Source: Candidatus Kerfeldbacteria bacterium CG_4_10_14_0_8_um_filter_42_10 (lineage in GTDB: Bacteria; Patescibacteriota; Patescibacteriia; UM-FILTER-42-10). From it: a stretch of 34,108 nt of DNA. The stretch spans positions 1-34,108 of the forward strand of contig PFMD01000021.1 of the NCBI GenBank assembly GCA_002784945.1. The letters run 5' to 3'. The notes under the pieces were generated by a model. That model was not told the origin of the DNA, did no database searches, and worked only from the letters and a program-made list of their open reading frames with translations. The translations under genes were made by a program, and so were the position numbers. The stretch's first letter is position 1; each line of letters begins with the position of its first letter. Below are positions 3,579-33,925 of this stretch, piece after piece.

Positions 3579-3708
3579 TTACTACTTGCTTATTTTCTGC
3601 TATAATAATGTTGTTGATAACTTCCTGTCCCGAATCTCGCAGTAGTAGGGCGAGGGATTCCATTACTCAGTTATTCCTCGGGATTTCCGTGTTTTATTTA
3701 GTGTAAGT

Positions 3709-3737
3709 TTGACAGAACGGGTTTTTTTTAGTAATAT
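3709..3737 (+). promoter_or_regulatory. Sigma70-type promoter TTGACA-N17-TAATAT for the pilin gene
   Basis: TTGACA 3709-3714, 17-nt spacer, TAATAT 3732-3737; the pilin ATG with its strong SD lies ~50 nt downstream of the predicted start site. Confidence 0.75.
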
Positions 3738-3792
3738 ACAATTAATAATTGTTTTAAGAATTAAAATCAAAAGAAGGGAAGGAGGTGAGAAA

Positions 3793-4269
3793 ATGAGAAA
3801 CAAAAAAGGCTTCACCTTAATCGAATTATTGGTCGTCATCGCGATTATTGGTTTATTGGCTACAATCGCCGTAGTGGCATTGAATAGCGCCAGAACCAGT
3901 TCTCGAGACGCCAAAAGAGTAGCGGACGTAAGACAAGTGCAGACCGGTTTAGAGATGTATTTTAATTCTCAAACCCAATATCCTTATGGTGCGGGTTGTG
4001 GAACTTATGCTAGTCCGGTTAGACTTTCGGCACTAGCAACAGCCGCCTGTAGTCCCGCTTTAGTACCATTTGTCACCGGAATCGGCAATATCACAGATCC
4101 AGTTAGTTCGAACACTACTCCTTGTGACGCCGACACACAATCAAACAACTGTGACTACGGGTATGCCGCTCCAACAGCTCCCTATTACGTGATATATTTT
4201 TCACTAGAGGGAACATCGGGTAGCTTTGAAGCAGGTCCTCACACCGCTACATCCGCTGGTATTCTATAA
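3793..4269 (+). CDS. Type IV major pilin / pseudopilin
   Basis: ATG preceded by aaggaggtgagaaa SD; MRNKKGFTLIELLVVIAIIGLLATIAVVALNSAR prepilin N-terminus. The longer ORF start at 3709 overlaps the promoter and is rejected. Confidence 0.93.
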   Translation: MRNKKGFTLIELLVVIAIIGLLATIAVVALNSARTSSRDAKRVADVRQVQTGLEMYFNSQTQYPYGAGCGTYASPVRLSALATAACSPALVPFVTGIGNITDPVSSNTTPCDADTQSNNCDYGYAAPTAPYYVIYFSLEGTSGSFEAGPHTATSAGIL

Positions 4270-4285
4270 AATTGAAATTTCCAAA

Positions 4286-4326
4286 AGAGCCTTAAATGTC
4301 TTTAAATAAGACGAGGGCTCTTTTTG
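4286..4326 (+). terminator. Rho-independent terminator after the pilin gene
   Basis: agagcc...ggctct stem followed by ttttt. Confidence 0.75.
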
Positions 4327-4336
4327 GTTTTGAATT

Positions 4337-4402
4337 GGTAGGCGAAATGCCGATTTATCCACCGAAGTCCTTCGGAGGACGAAGGCGGACGTTTCGCCTA
4401 CC
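4337..4402. repeat. REP-like inverted repeat
   Basis: ggtaggcgaaa (4337-4347) / tttcgcctacc (4392-4402) enclosing a second hairpin ccgaagtccttcgg. Confidence 0.75.
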
Positions 4403-4426
4403 GTGAGAGTGAGGTATAATTAAATC

Positions 4427-5731
4427 ATGAACCCACAAAAAATAATATATTTTCTTATTGGTTCGTTAGGATTGATTTTACCCCTTTTTTTGAATACCAC
4501 TTCAGATAATGAATTTACTTTTAATAAGACTTATCTTTTCCAGTTGATAATTTTGATTAGCGCGGCTTTTTTGTTTTTCACTTGGAATCAATTTTCCGAA
4601 ATGATTAAAAAATGCTGGAATAGTTTCAGGCTTACTTTTCTTGTCTTGGTATTTTATTTTGGCGTACTAGTGGTAAGCACGATTTTTTCTATTTCGCCGC
4701 AAATAAGTTTTTGGGGCGGAGGGAGACAACAAGGGCTAATGCAATTTTTGTTTTATTTGATTTTCTTTTTTGTTGTATTATTGATAAAACCCACCAAGAA
4801 AAAGATCATTCAGTTACTTTACTTTATTTGCGGCGTTTCTTTTCTGGTAAGCACTTTTGGGATATTAGAGTATTTTAAAATTCGTCCCTTTCCCTTCCCA
4901 GTTTATGATTCGGGAGTCGCCTCTACTTTGGGCCATCCCAGTTTTTTGGGAGCGTATCTGATAATGGTGTTGCCGATAACCATCGGTTTATTTTGTATTT
5001 CTAGCTTAAGACTAATTAGGTATATCCTAGGAATTACTTTTGTTTTTCAACTAATCGTTCTTTATTTAACTGAAACAAGAGCAGCTTGGCTTGCTTTCGG
5101 GCTTTCTCTATTTTTAGCCCTAATTCTTTTTCTTTTGAAAAGAGAAAAAGTAACCGCCCTTATCGCTTTGTTTATTCTGCTTCTGGGCTCTTTTGTTTTT
5201 CTAATCCAAAGCGGCTATTTAAGTAAAATAGACGTTTTGGAAACAGGTTCAGGCGCTTTAAGAATCACTTGGTGGGAGGATGCGGTAAAAGCGATTCAAA
5301 AAAGGCCGATTATTGGCTATGGTTTAGAAACCCAAGAAGATGTGCTAATGCCCTATTTTAATTCCGGCCAGATACTGGCCGGCCGGGTCGACCGGGCGCA
5401 TAATGAGATTTTAGACGATTTATTAACCACTGGCATTTTAGGCGCCGTCTCATTCTTTATTTTTGTTGGTTTGGTTTTTAAGGATGGAATTGATCATTAT
5501 TTTAAAAGTAAGGATCGGGAAAGGCGGATTATCTCACTGGCCTTGTTAACCGGCCTGGCCGCCTATTTTATTCAGGGAATGTTCAGTTTTTCCGTTACCA
5601 TCCTTTACGTCTATTTTTGGCTGTTGGCGGGGATGGTGGTTGTTTTGGCGAGAGGGGAGAAAGAAGCTGACAAACAAGATTTGCCTGTCTGTCTGCTGTC
5701 GCAGGCAACGGACAGGTCAGCTACGCGATAA
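4427..5731 (+). CDS. O-antigen ligase/polymerase (Wzy_C-like) membrane protein; probably the N-terminal half of a split ligase-TPR gene
   Basis: Multiple TM segments; LTETRAAWLAF, WWEDAVKAIQKRPIIGYGLETQ..., RAHNEILDDLLTTGILGAVSFF typical of O-antigen ligases; C-terminus repeat-derived. Confidence 0.85.
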   Translation: MNPQKIIYFLIGSLGLILPLFLNTTSDNEFTFNKTYLFQLIILISAAFLFFTWNQFSEMIKKCWNSFRLTFLVLVFYFGVLVVSTIFSISPQISFWGGGRQQGLMQFLFYLIFFFVVLLIKPTKKKIIQLLYFICGVSFLVSTFGILEYFKIRPFPFPVYDSGVASTLGHPSFLGAYLIMVLPITIGLFCISSLRLIRYILGITFVFQLIVLYLTETRAAWLAFGLSLFLALILFLLKREKVTALIALFILLLGSFVFLIQSGYLSKIDVLETGSGALRITWWEDAVKAIQKRPIIGYGLETQEDVLMPYFNSGQILAGRVDRAHNEILDDLLTTGILGAVSFFIFVGLVFKDGIDHYFKSKDRERRIISLALLTGLAAYFIQGMFSFSVTILYVYFWLLAGMVVVLARGEKEADKQDLPVCLLSQATDRSATR

Positions 5732-26639: not shown

Positions 26640-27026
26640 ATGAATAGCAAGCAAAAAATCCTTCTAATTGAGGATGATAAAATGCTCTTAGAGATGTATT
26701 CCTCGAAGTTTAACCGAGAAGGGTACGATATTGTTACCGCGGAAAACGGATCCGATGGATTAAAACTGGCTAAAGAAAACAAGCCAGATTTGATACTGCT
26801 AGATATCATTCTTCCTAAACTGGATGGTTTTGCCACCTTAAAAGAGATTCGCGGTGATGCTAACATTAAAAATACGCCCGTTATCCTGTTGACTAACTTG
26901 GGGCAAGATCAGGATATCCAAAAAGGTAAAGCGTTGGGAGCGGATGATTATTTTGTCAAAGCCAACCATACCCCTACCGAAGTGGTAGAAAAAGTAAGGG
27001 AACTATTAAAGAGCAAAGGAAAATAA
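26640..27026 (+). CDS. Single-domain response regulator
   Basis: KILLIEDDKMLLEMYSSKFNREGYDIVTAENGSDGLKLAKENKPDLILLDIILPKLDGF...TNLGQDQDIQKGKALGADDYFVKA. Confidence 0.93.
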   Translation: MNSKQKILLIEDDKMLLEMYSSKFNREGYDIVTAENGSDGLKLAKENKPDLILLDIILPKLDGFATLKEIRGDANIKNTPVILLTNLGQDQDIQKGKALGADDYFVKANHTPTEVVEKVRELLKSKGK

Positions 27027-27509
27027 ATGAAAGAAAGAACTTTAATTATCATTAAGCCCGATGCTTTGCAAAGAAATTTATTAGGCGAAGTAGTCACTCG
27101 CTTCGAGAGAAAAGGATTGAAGATCGTCGGGTTAAAAATGTTTTCTATCGATGATACCTTAATTGCGGAACATTACGAGCATCATAAAGACAAGCCATTT
27201 TTTGAAGATTTAAAAAAATTTATGCAGTCTTCGCCGGTAGTGGTAATGGTGCTAGAAGGGCACAGCGCCATTAATGCGGTTCGGTTGATTGTTGGCCCGA
27301 CCACCGGCCGAGAAGCGGATGCCGGCAGTATCCGGGGCGACTTTTCTATGAGCAAAGGGCATAATATCGTACACGCTTCCGATTCCAAAGAAACAGCGGA
27401 ACAGGAGATTTACCGTTTTTTCAACGAAGATGAACTTTTTAACTACCAAAAACTTGATTTTTCGGCAGTATATGATGAGAGCGAGCGCCAAGAACTGGGC
27501 GGAGCTTGA
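27027..27509 (+). CDS. ndk: Nucleoside diphosphate kinase
   Basis: ERTLIIIKPDALQRNLLGEVVTRFERKGLKIVGLKM...IVGPTTGREADAGSIRGDFSMSKGHNIVHASDSKETAEQEIYRFF. Confidence 0.97.
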   Translation: MKERTLIIIKPDALQRNLLGEVVTRFERKGLKIVGLKMFSIDDTLIAEHYEHHKDKPFFEDLKKFMQSSPVVVMVLEGHSAINAVRLIVGPTTGREADAGSIRGDFSMSKGHNIVHASDSKETAEQEIYRFFNEDELFNYQKLDFSAVYDESERQELGGA

Positions 27510-27534
27510 CGCGTTTAAACATATAGAATAAAAT
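27506..27534 (+). promoter_or_regulatory. Promoter TTGACG-N17-TAAAAT for the Ile leader operon
   Basis: TTGACG 27506-27511, TAAAAT 27529-27534; overlaps the ndk stop codon; predicted start site ~6 nt before the leader ATG. Confidence 0.7.
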
Positions 27535-27546
27535 CAATCTAAAGTT

Positions 27547-27609
27547 ATGAACAGAAACGTTAGAAACATAGCAGCAATAATTATTATTAACACCAGACAC
27601 TCTGGCTAG
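27547..27609 (+). CDS. Ile-run leader peptide 1: MNRNVRNIAAIIIINTRHSG*
   Basis: Short ORF with ata att att att codons just upstream of the competing antiterminator/terminator. Confidence 0.75.
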   Translation: MNRNVRNIAAIIIINTRHSG

Positions 27610-27659
27610 TTTTACGATAGAATAATATATAGGAAAACTGGCCGGATAAGCCAGTTTTT
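27602..27659 (+). promoter_or_regulatory. Attenuator 1: antiterminator 27602-27613:27634-27645 versus terminator 27634-27642:27650-27658
   Basis: ctggctagtttt pairs over 12 bp (two G-U) with aaaactggccgg; aaaactggc pairs over 9 bp with gccagtttt followed by T. Confidence 0.8.
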
Positions 27660-27669
27660 AAGTATCAAA

Positions 27670-27723
27670 ATGAACAATCAATCCAAATCAAGCCTAATTA
27701 TTATTATCACCTTTTTCAGATGA
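27670..27723 (+). CDS. Ile-run leader peptide 2: MNNQSKSSLIIIITFFR*
   Basis: Short ORF with att att att atc codons, tandem to leader 1 and followed by its own terminator. Confidence 0.72.
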   Translation: MNNQSKSSLIIIITFFR

Positions 27724-27790
27724 GAGGCTTGGTATAGTGAAAAAATAATAATAGAAACGCTTAAGCCGGTCTCTCTCAAGAGCCGGTTTT
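27722..27790 (+). promoter_or_regulatory. Attenuator 2: antiterminator gagaggctt (27722-27730) with aagccggtctc (27763-27773) versus terminator 27763-27790
   Basis: Terminator aagccggtctctctcaagagccggtttt; the alternative pairing involves the 3' end of the leader ORF. Confidence 0.65.
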
Positions 27791-27856
27791 AAAATATAAA
27801 AATAACCAGAAGGATAAATACCATAACGCATCGTACATTTTTAAAGGAGGAGTGCC

Positions 27857-28051
27857 GTGGAAAAGAAACAAGCAAATTTCACCCCTGCTCGGCAGTTCAG
27901 CGGCAAAACGCTAGAAACCGCCATCCAAGCTTTAAACAAGGCTTTAACAGAAGGCGAATTAAGCGATTTGCCGTCCCACATCACCATAACGGTCCAGGGG
28001 AATCAGCTTAGCGAAGAGACCAGACGGCGTTGGGCCAGTATGCCCGTATAG
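27857..28051 (+). CDS. 64-aa orphan protein downstream of the tandem Ile attenuators
   Basis: Strong SD aaaggagg 6 nt before the GTG start; own terminator follows (28066-28100). Confidence 0.75.
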   Translation: MEKKQANFTPARQFSGKTLETAIQALNKALTEGELSDLPSHITITVQGNQLSEETRRRWASMPV

Positions 28052-28065
28052 TTCTTTTTAACTCA

Positions 28066-28102
28066 GTGAGTACACCACCTGCTTTGGCGGGTGGTTTTTC
28101 TT
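28066..28102 (+). terminator. Rho-independent terminator
   Basis: ccacctgctttggcgggtgg followed by tttttctttttt-like run. Confidence 0.85.
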
Positions 28103-28120
28103 TTTAAATTGATTTGAAAA

Positions 28121-28152
28121 GGGTAGCGGGAACGACGTCGTTCCCGCTACCC
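28121..28152. repeat. Perfect 32-bp palindrome gggtagcgggaacgacgtcgttcccgctaccc
   Basis: Equal to its own reverse complement. Confidence 0.95.
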
Positions 28153-28196: not shown

Positions 28197-28546
28197 AATT
28201 CATTGATAATTACAAAACTTTCAATTTAGGTCCCTTTTTCCATAAGAAAAAGGGTTGGGCCTGAGTTTTCGAACAAAGTACAATTTGTTTCGAGAAGTGA
28301 TCTCTGCGTTAGTGGAGATCCGGCTTCCTCCGTAATCATAGGATAACTGATGTCGCCCGAATGAGCTTGTCTCAGAAAGGAACAGAGTCAGTAAAAGTGG
28401 TTTTTTAGAATCCGTTTTACTGGCGGATTTTTTTAATTCGCCAGCTGGATTTATAAAACAACAAAGGTGGTACCACGGGCTGTCTTGAATTCAAGACCTC
28501 TCGTCCTTCTGTCCAATTTTTTGGATTTTGGGATGAGGGGTTTTTT
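28197..28546 (+). ncRNA. T-box riboswitch leader
   Basis: T-box core aaaggtggtaccacg (28463-28477), then the ctctcgtccttc segment and terminator cctctcgtcc (28497-28506) / ggatgagggg (28531-28540) + TTTTTT; stem III-like cagtaaaa...ttttactg upstream. Specifier not assigned. Confidence 0.88.
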
Positions 28547-28575
28547 GTTCTTTAAAATCAAGAAAGAAGGGAAAA

Positions 28576-31194
28576 ATGAAAGGATCTGCAGCTAAAAATC
28601 GGATAGTCAGTTTTACTAGTCTGACAGCAGAACAACTCGCTGTACTACCCGGTAAAATTACGCGACTTTACCACAACTGGCGTCAGGGATTGCCTGTGCC
28701 GTCTCGTGGCTTTGTCGTCTTTCAGGCAGTTGTTAAGGACATCGTTGAATCGTTGCACGAAGGCAATCGGTTGCCCGGCTACACCCGTAGAGAATTGCTA
28801 TCAGCCTATCGCCGAGGCGGTTTTGAACACGACGGAATGCGGGTGGCAGTCCGCGGCGCACTGTCGGTTGAGGACCAAGCCAATGCTTCCTGGGCCGGAG
28901 GTTCAGAGAGCCCGACGAACGTTCTTGGTAAGAAAGCATTCCTGGAGGCAATAGTCACCTGTATTACCGAAACATTCAACGGCAAAATGGATGGTTACCG
29001 TATCCGAATGGGGATTGAAGGTGAACTGAAACTTTCAATCTTGGTGCATCAGATGGCAGTTTGCGATCGGTTTGCCGTGGTGTTTACGCGTAACCCGATG
29101 AACGGTTCACCGGATGAAATTGTCATTCAGTCAACTTTCGGAGGCGGGCAGTTATTAACCGCTGGCAGAGAAACTGGTGACATTTTCATTCTTGACCGCA
29201 ACGGTAGGATATTGTCTGAAACCATCACCACTAAGGCGTTGATGGTAACCGACGAAAAAGTAGTGCCGATGCCTTCCCAATTGAAGGATAAAAGATCGCT
29301 TGAACCGAGCCAGCTGTTGAACCTGGTTAAATTCGTTCTCACAATTGAAGCAATTGAAAACGGCGTTCCTCAAGATTGTGAGATCGCTCTGGCAGTAGAC
29401 AACAGTGGGAGGATGGATAAATCACTCGTGCAAAATCGGCCAATTACTGCTGTTGGCGATTCTCCCGGATTGATTCGTTATCAAGCGATTAAATCAGCCA
29501 AAGCGGCGGTGGCCGCAGAGCGTTCGCGTTTGGAGAATCTTGGCGTTACAGTTCCGATTGACGTGCTTAGCGATCAGAATGTCGCAGAACTGCTCACTCA
29601 ACACCCTACCCCATTCAGTTTCGGGTTGTTTACCTACATCTTTGCGCATGGCGACGGAGCGATCCGCACCGGTCGCAACTTGATGGGGTACTCCATCGGA
29701 GAAGAGTTGGACGCTGGTTTTTTTGAATTAATTGGCTCACAACCGCGTTGCAGCATTTTCCATGACGCTCTAACCTACCGAATCTCAGGCATCTCACCGA
29801 TTGATTACCTTCAAGGAATGGTGCGTTCTTACTTTGATGCAATTCAAGCTGATGAACGGTTCGCCAATTACCCTGAGGTTAGTCTCTACGACCAGAATCC
29901 GAGCTTGGAGCGTCTCACGGAACTATACGGACGGGAAAAGGCCGAGGTTTACAAGCAGTGTTATGATCGGTTCTTTACCGGCATTCGTCAGTGGGAACGG
30001 ACATTTGCCGACGCTTATTTAAGCGTTCATGAGCCGATTGTCGCTGAGTTTGTTAATCAACAGCGCCGATTCGCTCAACTTCCGTTGTCGTCTGAACTGA
30101 TTGAATCACTTCAGGAAAAGTTCGACTTCCTGCGCACAAAAGTCTGTGTTTGGTTCGTCATCGTGGCACGGCTCGGCTTTTTTGCCTACGCTCGTCTGCG
30201 TAAAACGTTAGAGACACACTTTAATGGAGCCGGAGGTCAGCAACTGCTCGATTATCTTACCAGCGGCCTGCAAAACGATCCGACGATCGAGTTCAACGTT
30301 CGCTTGGATCAACTAAACAACGGAACAGTCACTCAAGCTTCTGTTTTGGCGGAGTTTGGACATCTAGGGTTCAACGAATTGGAAATCTCCGGACCGCGGT
30401 ATCACGAACATCCCGAGATGATGGATCAACTCGCTATTGGGATTAAAGGTGATCCTAAGGCTGAACTTCAGCGTCGGCTTCAGGAATACCGAACGGCGCA
30501 GCAATATGTCAGCGCCGGTTTAACCGGAGACAAACGGAAAGAATTCGAGCGGGACGTTGATTCGGCTCGGACGTATCTGGCACTCCGCGAGCGAGTCAAG
30601 TTTAATTATCTCAGGGTTTATGACTTGGTTCGTAGCCAGCTACTTTCCGTTGAAGCGCAGTTGAAGTGGCCGCCCGGCCACATCTTCTTCCTTGATCCCA
30701 GGGAAATCAGGATGTTGATTGATGCGCCGAACGATGCGCTTAAGCTCGCCATCCAACGAAAAGAACGCCATGATCAAGAGTTCAAGATGGAAGTGCCGCA
30801 GGTCATGTTTGTCGATCAGTTGAGTAAAATCGGCTTGGTTGATACCCCGAAAGGTGCTAGCGAGTTGCTAGGCATCGGCGTAACGTCGTTTGTCGCGGAG
30901 GGTCCGGCGGTTGTTATTCTTGACCCGAATGATCATCATGCCCTAGAACTGATGAGTGACGGTTGTGTACTGGTAGCACACACTACTGACCCGACCTGGG
31001 CGCCAATCATCGGTGCAGTCGGTAATGGCGGTTTAGTCACTGAGGTAGGCGGTCCGCTTGCTCACGGAGCGATTACCGCCCGGGAACTTGGGATTGCAGC
31101 TGTTCTTAATGTCAAACACGCTACTAAAGTCATCAAGACTGGCCAGCGGGTGCGCGTTGATGGTCCTGCCGGCAAGATCTACATTCTTGACTAG
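28576..31194 (+). CDS. PEP synthase / rifampicin phosphotransferase-like PEP-utilizing enzyme
   Basis: N-terminal ATP-grasp: LPVPSRGFVV, VAVRGALSVEDQANASWAGG, VFTRNPMNGSPDEIVIQSTFGGGQLLTAGRETGD, VQNRPIT; middle GHLGFNELEISGPRYHEHPEM; C-terminal swivelling His domain GGPLAHGAITARELGIAAVLNV. Confidence 0.88.
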   Translation: MKGSAAKNRIVSFTSLTAEQLAVLPGKITRLYHNWRQGLPVPSRGFVVFQAVVKDIVESLHEGNRLPGYTRRELLSAYRRGGFEHDGMRVAVRGALSVEDQANASWAGGSESPTNVLGKKAFLEAIVTCITETFNGKMDGYRIRMGIEGELKLSILVHQMAVCDRFAVVFTRNPMNGSPDEIVIQSTFGGGQLLTAGRETGDIFILDRNGRILSETITTKALMVTDEKVVPMPSQLKDKRSLEPSQLLNLVKFVLTIEAIENGVPQDCEIALAVDNSGRMDKSLVQNRPITAVGDSPGLIRYQAIKSAKAAVAAERSRLENLGVTVPIDVLSDQNVAELLTQHPTPFSFGLFTYIFAHGDGAIRTGRNLMGYSIGEELDAGFFELIGSQPRCSIFHDALTYRISGISPIDYLQGMVRSYFDAIQADERFANYPEVSLYDQNPSLERLTELYGREKAEVYKQCYDRFFTGIRQWERTFADAYLSVHEPIVAEFVNQQRRFAQLPLSSELIESLQEKFDFLRTKVCVWFVIVARLGFFAYARLRKTLETHFNGAGGQQLLDYLTSGLQNDPTIEFNVRLDQLNNGTVTQASVLAEFGHLGFNELEISGPRYHEHPEMMDQLAIGIKGDPKAELQRRLQEYRTAQQYVSAGLTGDKRKEFERDVDSARTYLALRERVKFNYLRVYDLVRSQLLSVEAQLKWPPGHIFFLDPREIRMLIDAPNDALKLAIQRKERHDQEFKMEVPQVMFVDQLSKIGLVDTPKGASELLGIGVTSFVAEGPAVVILDPNDHHALELMSDGCVLVAHTTDPTWAPIIGAVGNGGLVTEVGGPLAHGAITARELGIAAVLNVKHATKVIKTGQRVRVDGPAGKIYILD

Positions 31195-32007: not shown

Positions 32008-32036
32008 TTGACAGCTTTACCGCGGTTTGCTATTAT
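32008..32036 (+). promoter_or_regulatory. Promoter TTGACA-N17-TATTAT upstream of the Phe leader
   Basis: TTGACA 32008-32013, TATTAT 32031-32036. Confidence 0.8.
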
Positions 32037-32058
32037 TTTTCTAACATCGAAAATCACC

Positions 32059-32148
32059 ATGATTATCAGAGAAACCACAATTCAGAAATTATTAAATAAT
32101 CAAATCCAATTTTTTGGTTTCTTTTTTAAGCTGTCGCCCGGTGATTAG
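32059..32148 (+). CDS. Phe-rich leader peptide: MIIRETTIQKLLNNQIQFFGFFFKLSPGD*
   Basis: ttt ttt ggt ttc ttt ttt run immediately upstream of the attenuator; reminiscent of E. coli PheL (...FFFAFFFTFP). Confidence 0.78.
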   Translation: MIIRETTIQKLLNNQIQFFGFFFKLSPGD

Positions 32149-32198
32149 TTAATTTTAATTTAAATCATTTTAACTAGCCACCGGACGGTGGCTTTTTT
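32138..32198 (+). promoter_or_regulatory. Phe attenuator: antiterminator 32138-32152:32170-32184 versus terminator 32176-32193
   Basis: ccggtgattagttaa pairs at 14 of 15 positions (one G-U) with ttaactagccaccgg; agccacc-ggac-ggtggct + TTTTT. Confidence 0.85.
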
Positions 32199-32366
32199 GA
32201 TTATCGTCGAGCTAAACTCGATCGCCACTCTCAGTTCGCTATTCGTATATCGCAAATTAAATCTCGCTATTTTAAATATTTGTCCCGAGATAGTCGGTCC
32301 TAAATTATTAGGAATGAAAATTTCTGGACAAAGAAAAGAATTAGTTTCAATAGGAGGTGAAAAATC

Positions 32367-32654
32367 ATGCCAGAAAAATTACCTGACTGCTCCTGCGGTG
32401 AGTCGATAACCATTGTCTGGGAAGAAGTGACCCATTACGATCAGCCATTCAGTGGCTTATCTAATACAGTCTCGCATGGTTTTCGGGGCTGTTGCGGAAA
32501 TGGTTGTAAATCCGTGTCAATCGCTCAACAACACTTCCCACTCCCAGAAAGTGTAACAGTGGTAGCTCAACGGCCGGCCAGGATAGCAGTTGGATCATTT
32601 CCTCCGCCTGAATTCAGTGGAGATAATCCGGACTGGTATCTATGGATACCGTAA
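32367..32654 (+). CDS. 95-aa Cys-containing orphan protein downstream of the Phe attenuator
   Basis: Strong SD taggaggtgaaaaatc before the ATG; CSC and CCGNGC motifs; followed by a terminator. Confidence 0.75.
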   Translation: MPEKLPDCSCGESITIVWEEVTHYDQPFSGLSNTVSHGFRGCCGNGCKSVSIAQQHFPLPESVTVVAQRPARIAVGSFPPPEFSGDNPDWYLWIP

Positions 32655-32670
32655 TCGCACCTTCAGTTAA

Positions 32671-32702
32671 CCCGCTAAACCTCTGTGTTTAGCGGTTTTT
32701 TT
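32671..32702 (+). terminator. Rho-independent terminator
   Basis: ccgctaaa-cctctgtg-tttagcgg + ttttttt. Confidence 0.88.
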
Positions 32703-32713
32703 ATCCGTATTCA

Positions 32714-32742
32714 TTGTCAGATAAATAGGTATGGAATATACT
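32714..32742 (+). promoter_or_regulatory. Promoter TTGTCA-N17-TATACT of a small structured RNA
   Basis: TTGTCA 32714-32719, TATACT 32737-32742; predicted start ~32749 coincides with the first base of the RNA stem. Confidence 0.75.
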
Positions 32743-32748
32743 TAAAAT

Positions 32749-32905
32749 GCTCTACTTTTCAAGAACCAGTTAATCCAGTTCGACAGGATTATTATATTGG
32801 GAGCTCAATATCTTCTTAGCCTGCGGGCTAAGATTGCGAGCACCCACTTTTCCATAAGGAGCTAGGGCGATTACTGGTTTGAAAGTAGAGCTCCTATTTT
32901 TGTTC
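32749..32905 (+). ncRNA. Structured RNA, 6S-like (long closing stem, internal bulges, apical hairpin)
   Basis: gctctacttttcaagaaccagttaatc pairs with gcgattactggtttgaaagtagagc; inner hairpins gctc...gagc and ttagcc-tgcg-ggctaa; U-rich end. Confidence 0.5.
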
Positions 32906-33556: not shown

Positions 33557-33925
33557 ATGGACGATCCAAAAAAAATATTGATTGTTGACGATGAGGCGTC
33601 AGTTAGATCAGCGATTAAGAACGCTTTTAGTCAAAAAAATATAGCCATTCTTGGAGCAAAGAGCGGCCAAGAGGGTTTAGTAATAGCTTTTAAAGAACAT
33701 CCCGATTTGATCATACTTGATTATGTAATGCCGATGTTTGACGGTATCGATTTTTTAAAAAAAATTAGGGACGATAAGTGGGGAAAAAATAGTAAAATTG
33801 TAATGCTTACTAATATCCCTTCTCCGGAAAAGAAAAAAGCATCCGAAGCGCTGGGAGCAGAATTTCTGGTAAAAGCGCAATGGAGGTTAGAGGATCTGGT
33901 AAAAAAGTGTGAAAAATTGGTATAG
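33557..33925 (+). CDS. Single-domain response regulator
   Basis: KKILIVDDEASVRSAIKNAFSQKNIAILGAKSGQEGL...PDLIILDYVMPMFDGIDFLKKI...IVMLTNIPS...LVKAQW. Confidence 0.92.
   Translation: MDDPKKILIVDDEASVRSAIKNAFSQKNIAILGAKSGQEGLVIAFKEHPDLIILDYVMPMFDGIDFLKKIRDDKWGKNSKIVMLTNIPSPEKKKASEALGAEFLVKAQWRLEDLVKKCEKLV

Follow-up and report, generated by a model that had tools for sequence, protein, structure and literature searches.

Tandem isoleucine-codon leaders with attenuator anatomy ahead of an orphan small ORF in a Kerfeldbacteria-like genome

Organisation of the ndk-adjacent stretch

The window considered here, that is, the whole 34,108 nt stretch of DNA analysed, belongs by its gene content and ndk identities to a Kerfeldbacteria-like family of the Patescibacteria. 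Three genomes of this family were compared: the source genome (G000), Candidatus Kerfeldbacteria CG08 (G001, locus L002; ndk identity 94 %) and Patescibacteria isolate mb.144 (G002, locus L003; ndk identity 80 %), the last of these from a sister genus. Wider searches drew on 286 genomes of the class, 95 related genomes and 333 phylum-wide genomes. In the window, ndk is followed by two Ile-rich leaders (the candidate Ile–Ile switch), a 64-aa ORF, a T-box leader with PEP-synthase-like and phosphatase-like genes, a candidate Phe switch, a 95-aa ORF, an RNA-like stretch and a SpoIIAA-like gene (Table 1). The mb.144 locus runs from ndk through the Ile–Ile switch, Cys-rich ORFs, the Phe switch and two ORFs to the same RNA-like stretch; that of CG08 comprises ndk, the RNA-like stretch and the SpoIIAA-like gene.

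The promoter named in the initial annotation is present, its −35 element overlapping the ndk stop codon, and its homologue in mb.144 reads TTGACA-N17-TATTAT. The predicted 5′ UTR of leader 1 measures only ~5 nt, and neither Ile leader of the window has a convincing SD sequence, despite ATG starts and conserved frames; the leader ORFs are presumably translated. Behind them, as had likewise been annotated, a strong SD introduces a 64-aa ORF, which is followed by a terminator. This ORF displays a coding signal of +10.3 bits in frame 0 (other frames −11.2 to +1.3; median gene slice 12.8). Beyond the closing terminator, positions 28121–28152 contain a perfect 16-bp inverted repeat (GGGTAGCGGGAACGAC/GTCGTTCCCGCTACCC), of which imperfect copies occur on contigs C3 and C4.

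The double Ile attenuator is no lone oddity, as a Phe attenuator and a further orphan ORF follow it and are syntenic in mb.144 (4668–5350 there, 32008–32703 in the window). The Phe attenuator at 32059 was pointed out by a genome scan for attenuators. Phe accounts for 5 of 28 leader residues in the window and 5 of 32 in mb.144. The 95-aa ORF is the weakest part of this arrangement, given that it has no codon-use coding signal (−15.7 bits) and is indicated by its SD and length only.

Several further observations concern the surroundings. A conserved stretch of ~150 nt is found in all three family genomes (window 32741–32895, mb.144 5401–5560, CG08 3607–3770), with the letters ATATACTTAAAATGCTCTACT..TTAATCC.GTTC..CAGGATTAT..GCACC, and precedes the SpoIIAA-like gene in two of them; it has no Rfam match and is possibly a new structured RNA. 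Two single-domain response regulators without an output domain lie near the cassettes (33557–33922 and 26640–27023). PEP-utilizer/PPDK_N paralogues are many in the source genome (L056, L063, L099, L141 and L142), several of them being consecutive on contig C27 (L142).

Table 1. Features of the Ile and Phe cassettes in the window
Feature	Position	Strand	Details
Sigma-70-type Ile promoter	27506..27534	+	TTGACG (27506–27511), 17-nt spacer, TAAAAT (27529–27534)
Ile leader ORF 1	27547..27609	+	MNRNVRNIAAIIIINTRHSG, then stop; ATG start; mb.144 counterpart MQNIISKIKLIISRTSG, then stop
Antiterminator 2:3, leader 1	27601..27646	+	Arm 2 UCUGGCUAGUUUU (27601–27613) with arm 3 AAAACUGGCCGGA (27634–27646)
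Terminator 1 (3:4)	27633..27662	+	GAAAACTGGC-CGGATAA-GCCAGTTTTT; competes with the 2:3 helix
Ile leader ORF 2	27670..27723	+	MNNQSKSSLIIIITFFR, then stop; mb.144 counterpart MNYKSNLIINNIAIIIYCR, then stop
Protector helix 1:2, leader 2	27687..27733	+	27687–27695/27725–27733, flanking the Ile codons
Antiterminator 2:3, leader 2	27719..27780	+	Arm 2 with arm 3
Terminator 2 (3:4)	27763..27792	+	AAGCCGGTCTC..GAGCCGGTTTT; competes with the leader 2 2:3 helix
Orphan 64-aa ORF	27857..28051	+	GTG start; strong SD AAAGGAGG; presumed Ile-switch target
Terminator closing the Ile cassette	~28074..28105	+	CCACCTGC-TTTG-GCGGGTGG-T5
Phe promoter	32008..32036	+	TTGACA-N17-TATTAT
Phe leader ORF	32059..32148	+	MIIRETTIQKLLNNQIQFFGFFFKLSPGD, then stop; mb.144 counterpart MKYTINHSSIIQKTVATGSFGFFFGYFNPRTDG, then stop
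Phe attenuator	32130..32198	+	Antiterminator 32130–32192; terminator AGCCACC-GGAC-GGTGGCT-T6, 32176–32198
Orphan 95-aa ORF	32367..32654	+	SD AGGAGGTG; presumed Phe-switch target; terminator ~32672–32703

Competing helices and the effect of ribosome position

The last codons and stop of leader 1 constitute arm 2, with the stop codon lying inside it. Arm 2 pairs with arm 3 at 13 of 13 positions, two of them G-U, and arm 3 doubles as the 5′ arm of terminator 1, so that the 2:3 and 3:4 helices compete. The stop-region pairing exclusive with the terminator that was originally described is therefore real, although its length of 12 bp has to be corrected to 13. Leader 2 has all four arms of an attenuator (pairing as 1:2, 2:3 and 3:4), and its helix 1:2 joins AUCAAGCCU, 5′ of the Ile codons, to AGGCUUGGU, 3′ of the stop. 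The expectation of a second leader with its own competing hairpins and terminator was thus borne out, with the qualification that the U tract of terminator 2 is weak (UUUUAAAA). An 11-mer of the 3′ arm of this terminator exists in another copy with the same letters.

Folded alone, the Ile terminator hairpins beat shuffled sequences, with z of about −3.8 and −3.9. A scan of 1.378 Mb of the source genome returned 1,890 terminator-like hairpins, only four of which fall into the class of leader 1 (terminator score of at least 20, competing helix of at least 28); leader 1 alone amongst these four has an ATG leader that ends at the helix and at least four of five identical residues. A broader cassette scan over the genome and the relatives' loci gave 46 candidates, headed by the first Ile leader of the window, the window Phe leader and the mb.144 Phe leader, and no further convincing attenuator cassette was present amongst the remainder.

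Folding was repeated with a ribosome footprint (A site −15 to +12) placed at every codon, which is a rough model. Before arm 4 is made, the 2:3 helix forms with a probability of 0.93–1.0 for every placement of the ribosome no further than the last Ile codon; this holds for all four Ile leaders, that is, both of the window and both of mb.144. It is lost one to four codons past the last Ile codon, again in four out of four, and with the ribosome on the stop codon 2:3 falls to 0 and the terminator reaches 1.0. The change from antiterminator, with the ribosome on the Ile codons, to terminator a few codons past them, sought under alternative folding constraints, is accordingly reproduced. With regard to the Phe leader of the window, its antiterminator (−24 kcal/mol, z −5.1, vs −12.3 for the terminator) is formed at 1.00 through the last Phe codon, with the terminator at 0.98 one codon later. 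Position-dependent switching, as it stands before arm 4 is made, is clean for the three leaders of the window and both Ile leaders of mb.144, and mixed for the mb.144 Phe leader, where CUGAUGGCU/AGCCAUCAG competes with AAGCCAUC-AGUAA-GAUGGUUU and arm 2 has a second, upstream partner that accounts for the mixed outcome.

Complete RNAs at equilibrium behave differently. Without a ribosome, the terminator is favoured in three of the four Ile leaders, leader 1 of the window staying antiterminated. Full-length leader 2, in the window as in mb.144, is antiterminated with the ribosome on some of the Ile codons; for full-length leader 1 of mb.144, the terminator is favoured wherever the ribosome is placed, which makes the outcome there entirely dependent on co-transcriptional folding. 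As full-length RNAs at equilibrium mostly favour the terminator, and mb.144 leader 1 does so at all positions, the switch would need co-transcriptional folding.

Conservation of the leaders and exchange of the ORFs behind them

Both Ile attenuators are found in mb.144, in the same order and directly after ndk, with the competing helices kept. The Ile codons and mutually exclusive pairings, whose loss in relatives had been set beforehand as the refuting outcome, are hence retained in the one other genome that carries the element. Conserved blocks between the window and mb.144 are CTCTGGCTAGTTTT and AGATGAGAGG(C/T)TTGGT. Three compensatory pairs distinguish the two, one each in three helices and each a G-C pair that becomes A-U in mb.144: 27640:27652 in terminator 1, 27692:27728 in helix 1:2 of leader 2, and a third in terminator 2. 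A base of leader 1 arm 3 that has changed in mb.144 keeps its pairing with both partners. Other pair changes include a few that are one-sided, and breaks occur solely at or adjoining helix ends. Leader 1 of mb.144 also forms a perfect 1:2 helix (AUGCAAAAC/GUUUUGCAU), which has no counterpart in leader 1 of the window.

The element is absent from CG08, the closest relative. Covariance models of its two halves (R1 and R2), run over the 286 class genomes, gave strong matches (E 1e-15 to 1e-22) in the source genome and mb.144 and in no other, thus the element appears restricted to the family as far as this was sampled. Matches in G018, G241 and G262 were discarded as chance (E 0.003–0.005 per genome, ~1 expected over the set). 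BLASTN of the element against the same 286 genomes returned, beyond mb.144, just short AT-rich chance matches, and a pattern scan of viral contigs returned none. The simplest history would place both the Ile and the Phe switch in the common ancestor, with their joint loss in the CG08 lineage.

The DNA 3′ of terminator 2 cannot be aligned between the window and mb.144. In the latter, the Ile switches precede two Cys-rich ORFs of 75 and 137 aa and then a terminator; by eye, the repeat C-P/Q-N-G..C.DC.L.P..CCCP recurs in about three copies over these two ORFs (3990–4605 of the mb.144 locus). Neither has a Pfam match or clear relatives, and they bear no similarity to the 64-aa ORF of the window. 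For the 64-aa protein itself, no relatives were detected in 95 related and 333 phylum-wide genomes, Pfam, NCBIfam, PHROGs, PDB or IMG/VR; three matches at E 0.004–0.008 over the 333 genomes are at chance level and were set aside. A single-sequence AlphaFold2 model (beta-alpha-alpha-beta-alpha, pLDDT 63) is too poor for a fold search. The Phe switch is similarly followed by different ORFs, the 60- and 50-aa ORFs of mb.144 being unrelated to the 95-aa ORF of the window, and all three are devoid of family matches and clear relatives.

Between the window and mb.144, the switch is conserved and its presumed cargo replaced. The 64-aa protein would be the regulated product, a role that lacks support from conservation, as the downstream ORFs of the two genomes are non-homologous. 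No biosynthesis, transport or aaRS gene was found behind the Ile switches, and the 64-aa ORF has no family match, in keeping with the earlier remark that the target is an unexpected one for an attenuator.

The proposed isoleucine gate, its alternatives and known systems

Ile makes up 20 of the 69 residues in the four Ile leaders, where ~10 % is expected by base composition and 8 % is found in genes; at a generous background of 12 % this gives p of about 1e-4, a value that is merely indicative as the leaders are homologous in pairs. Ketol-acid reductoisomerase (ilvC) was not detected above cut-off in the three family genomes, hence Ile is probably imported. Given the Ile share of the leaders and the undetected ilvC, the signal is read as probably being uncharged tRNA-Ile. 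A switch that normally precedes ileS was considered and rejected, since no leader of this kind lies upstream of ileS in any of the three family genomes.

The T-box leader between the cassettes (28229–28560; Rfam T-box 38 bits, E 1.3e-6, below gathering) has an unusual target, a PPDK_N/PEP-utilizer gene (28576–31194) lying downstream. The short hairpin loop of this leader, C-C-AUA-A-G, resembles the C-N-ACC-AA of NUDIX-thrS T-boxes in the source genome (contig C64) and mb.144 (contig C17), and from this likeness a possible Ile (AUA) specifier can tentatively be assigned. The UGGU of its bulge agrees with A as the discriminator base of the genome's tRNA-Ile(UAU), as opposed to UGGA in the thrS T-boxes and a U discriminator in tRNA-Thr. 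The T-box, too, speaks for control by amino-acid starvation in this part of the window.

Taken as a whole, the locus probably holds two tandem ribosome-mediated transcription attenuators, gated by Ile starvation, before the orphan 64-aa ORF. In this scheme, RNA polymerase would initiate near 27541. With charged tRNA-Ile ample, the ribosome would pass the Ile codons to the UAG stop of leader 1 and cover arm 2, leaving arm 3 to pair with arm 4, such that transcription terminates at ~27660; polymerases that escape would be tested again at leader 2 and stop at ~27790. If Ile-tRNA were scarce, the ribosome would wait on the Ile codons, 2:3 would pair and block the terminator, and read-through would reach the 64-aa ORF, whose own strong SD would serve its translation. 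Arranged serially on one signal, two switches would leak less and respond more steeply. An equivalent Phe-responsive design would stand ahead of the orphan 95-aa ORF (32059–32654).

Other readings of the leaders were weighed. Tandem leader peptides and Ile-containing stall motifs occur in macrolide-inducible leaders such as that of msrD, and some drug-dependent arrest peptides include Ile-rich stretches. Leaders of the erm or msrD style, stalling on an antibiotic or nascent-chain signal rather than in Ile starvation, would be indistinguishable in anatomy; however, the downstream ORF is neither a methyltransferase nor an ABC-F gene, the Ile leaders share Ile codons at differing positions rather than a fixed peptide motif, and the neighbouring leader of the same anatomy carries Phe codons, which renders this explanation improbable. 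It is quite improbable that these are two ordinary ndk terminators with chance AT-rich short ORFs between them and no regulation. Both terminators do lie downstream of ndk, Ile codons are frequent in AT-rich DNA (the expectation of ~10 % given above) and the leaders have no SDs; yet the sister genus keeps the promoter, the frames of the leaders and the 2:3 helix, with compensatory changes, whereas the sequence past terminator 2 does not align; leader 1 stands alone in the genome scan; and ribosome-position switching is seen in all four leaders.

The replacement of the ORFs behind conserved leaders could also suggest that the leader itself is the conserved product, its short terminated RNAs or peptides acting in trans and the ORFs behind being incidental, as the leader peptide peTrpL of Sinorhizobium is trans-acting (PMC7298713). 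Little credence can be given to this, as the leader peptides vary except for the Ile codons, covariation is seen in the arms relevant to read-through, a strong SD precedes each cargo ORF, and the cassettes possess their own terminators. A type I toxin reading, with the Ile-run peptides as small hydrophobic toxins paired with an antisense RNA, is extremely unlikely: at 17–20 residues with a hydrophobic run, and with an OrzO-P match at chance level (E 3.3), the peptides are reminiscent of such toxins, but the hydrophobic stretch spans ~8 residues and is interrupted by Asn in mb.144, competing helices sit at the stop codons, and known antisense RNA families were not found here.

An orphan small ORF under double attenuation gated by Ile hence remains the best reading, with leader translation, the Ile signal and the 64-aa product as its inferential parts; anatomy, conservation, compensatory changes and position-dependent switching are computational observations. 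A broader view, which is possible but stays tentative, is that in this family the DNA next to ndk holds several expression sites gated by amino acids, with orphan genes exchanged between lineages, each cassette having a promoter, a conserved Ile–Ile or Phe switch and a closing terminator, by which an auxotrophic and probably host-dependent cell might express fast-evolving small proteins when the external supply of Ile or Phe fails. If true, attenuation would here sense starvation without being tied to the pathway of the amino acid concerned, and would offer a way into the question of when such bacteria switch on their many orphan small genes, and for what reason.

Ribosome-mediated attenuation is textbook knowledge for amino-acid biosynthesis. 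The architecture initially likened to thrL, ilvL and pheL is matched by the anatomy, with Ile-rich leaders, exclusive 2:3 and 3:4 helices and arm 2 at the stop. As in the enterobacterial trpL, pheL/pheM, thrL and ilvL, there is a short leader ORF with a run of codons for one amino acid and a stop in or beside arm 2, leader 2 possessing the 1:2 protector as well. The targets of those systems are biosynthetic or aaRS genes; here they would be genus-specific orphan small ORFs in an organism without detected ilvC. Against the Rfam Phe_leader model (RF01859, gathering 55 bits), leader 2 scores 19.7 bits (E 2.2) and the Phe leader 22.9 bits (E 0.31), both at chance level.

Tandem T-boxes and riboswitches similarly place serial attenuators with intrinsic terminators in one leader, but bind tRNA or a metabolite directly, whereas the proposed sensor here is a translating ribosome. 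Outside the Proteobacteria, branched-chain amino-acid leader peptides precede ilv/leu genes in Corynebacterium and other actinobacteria; these are alike in being branched-chain leaders, and their abstracts mention no tandem orphan-ORF arrangement (PMC1262725, PMC11857589). In the open-access papers searched, no description of leader-peptide attenuation was found for the Patescibacteria radiation. The nearest precedent is the mgtCBR leader of Salmonella, in which two short ORFs in series, mgtM and mgtP, one of them rich in Pro codons, act on genes outside Pro metabolism (PMC3641672). Those two ORFs answer different signals (ATP and Pro) and their hairpins are unlike intrinsic terminators (PMC3641672), whereas codons for a single amino acid recur in both leaders here, each of which runs into an intrinsic-type terminator. 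Thus, whilst the mechanism of ribosome-mediated attenuation is known, what is new is the lineage, the doubling on the same amino acid, and the conserved switches with swapped orphan cargo.
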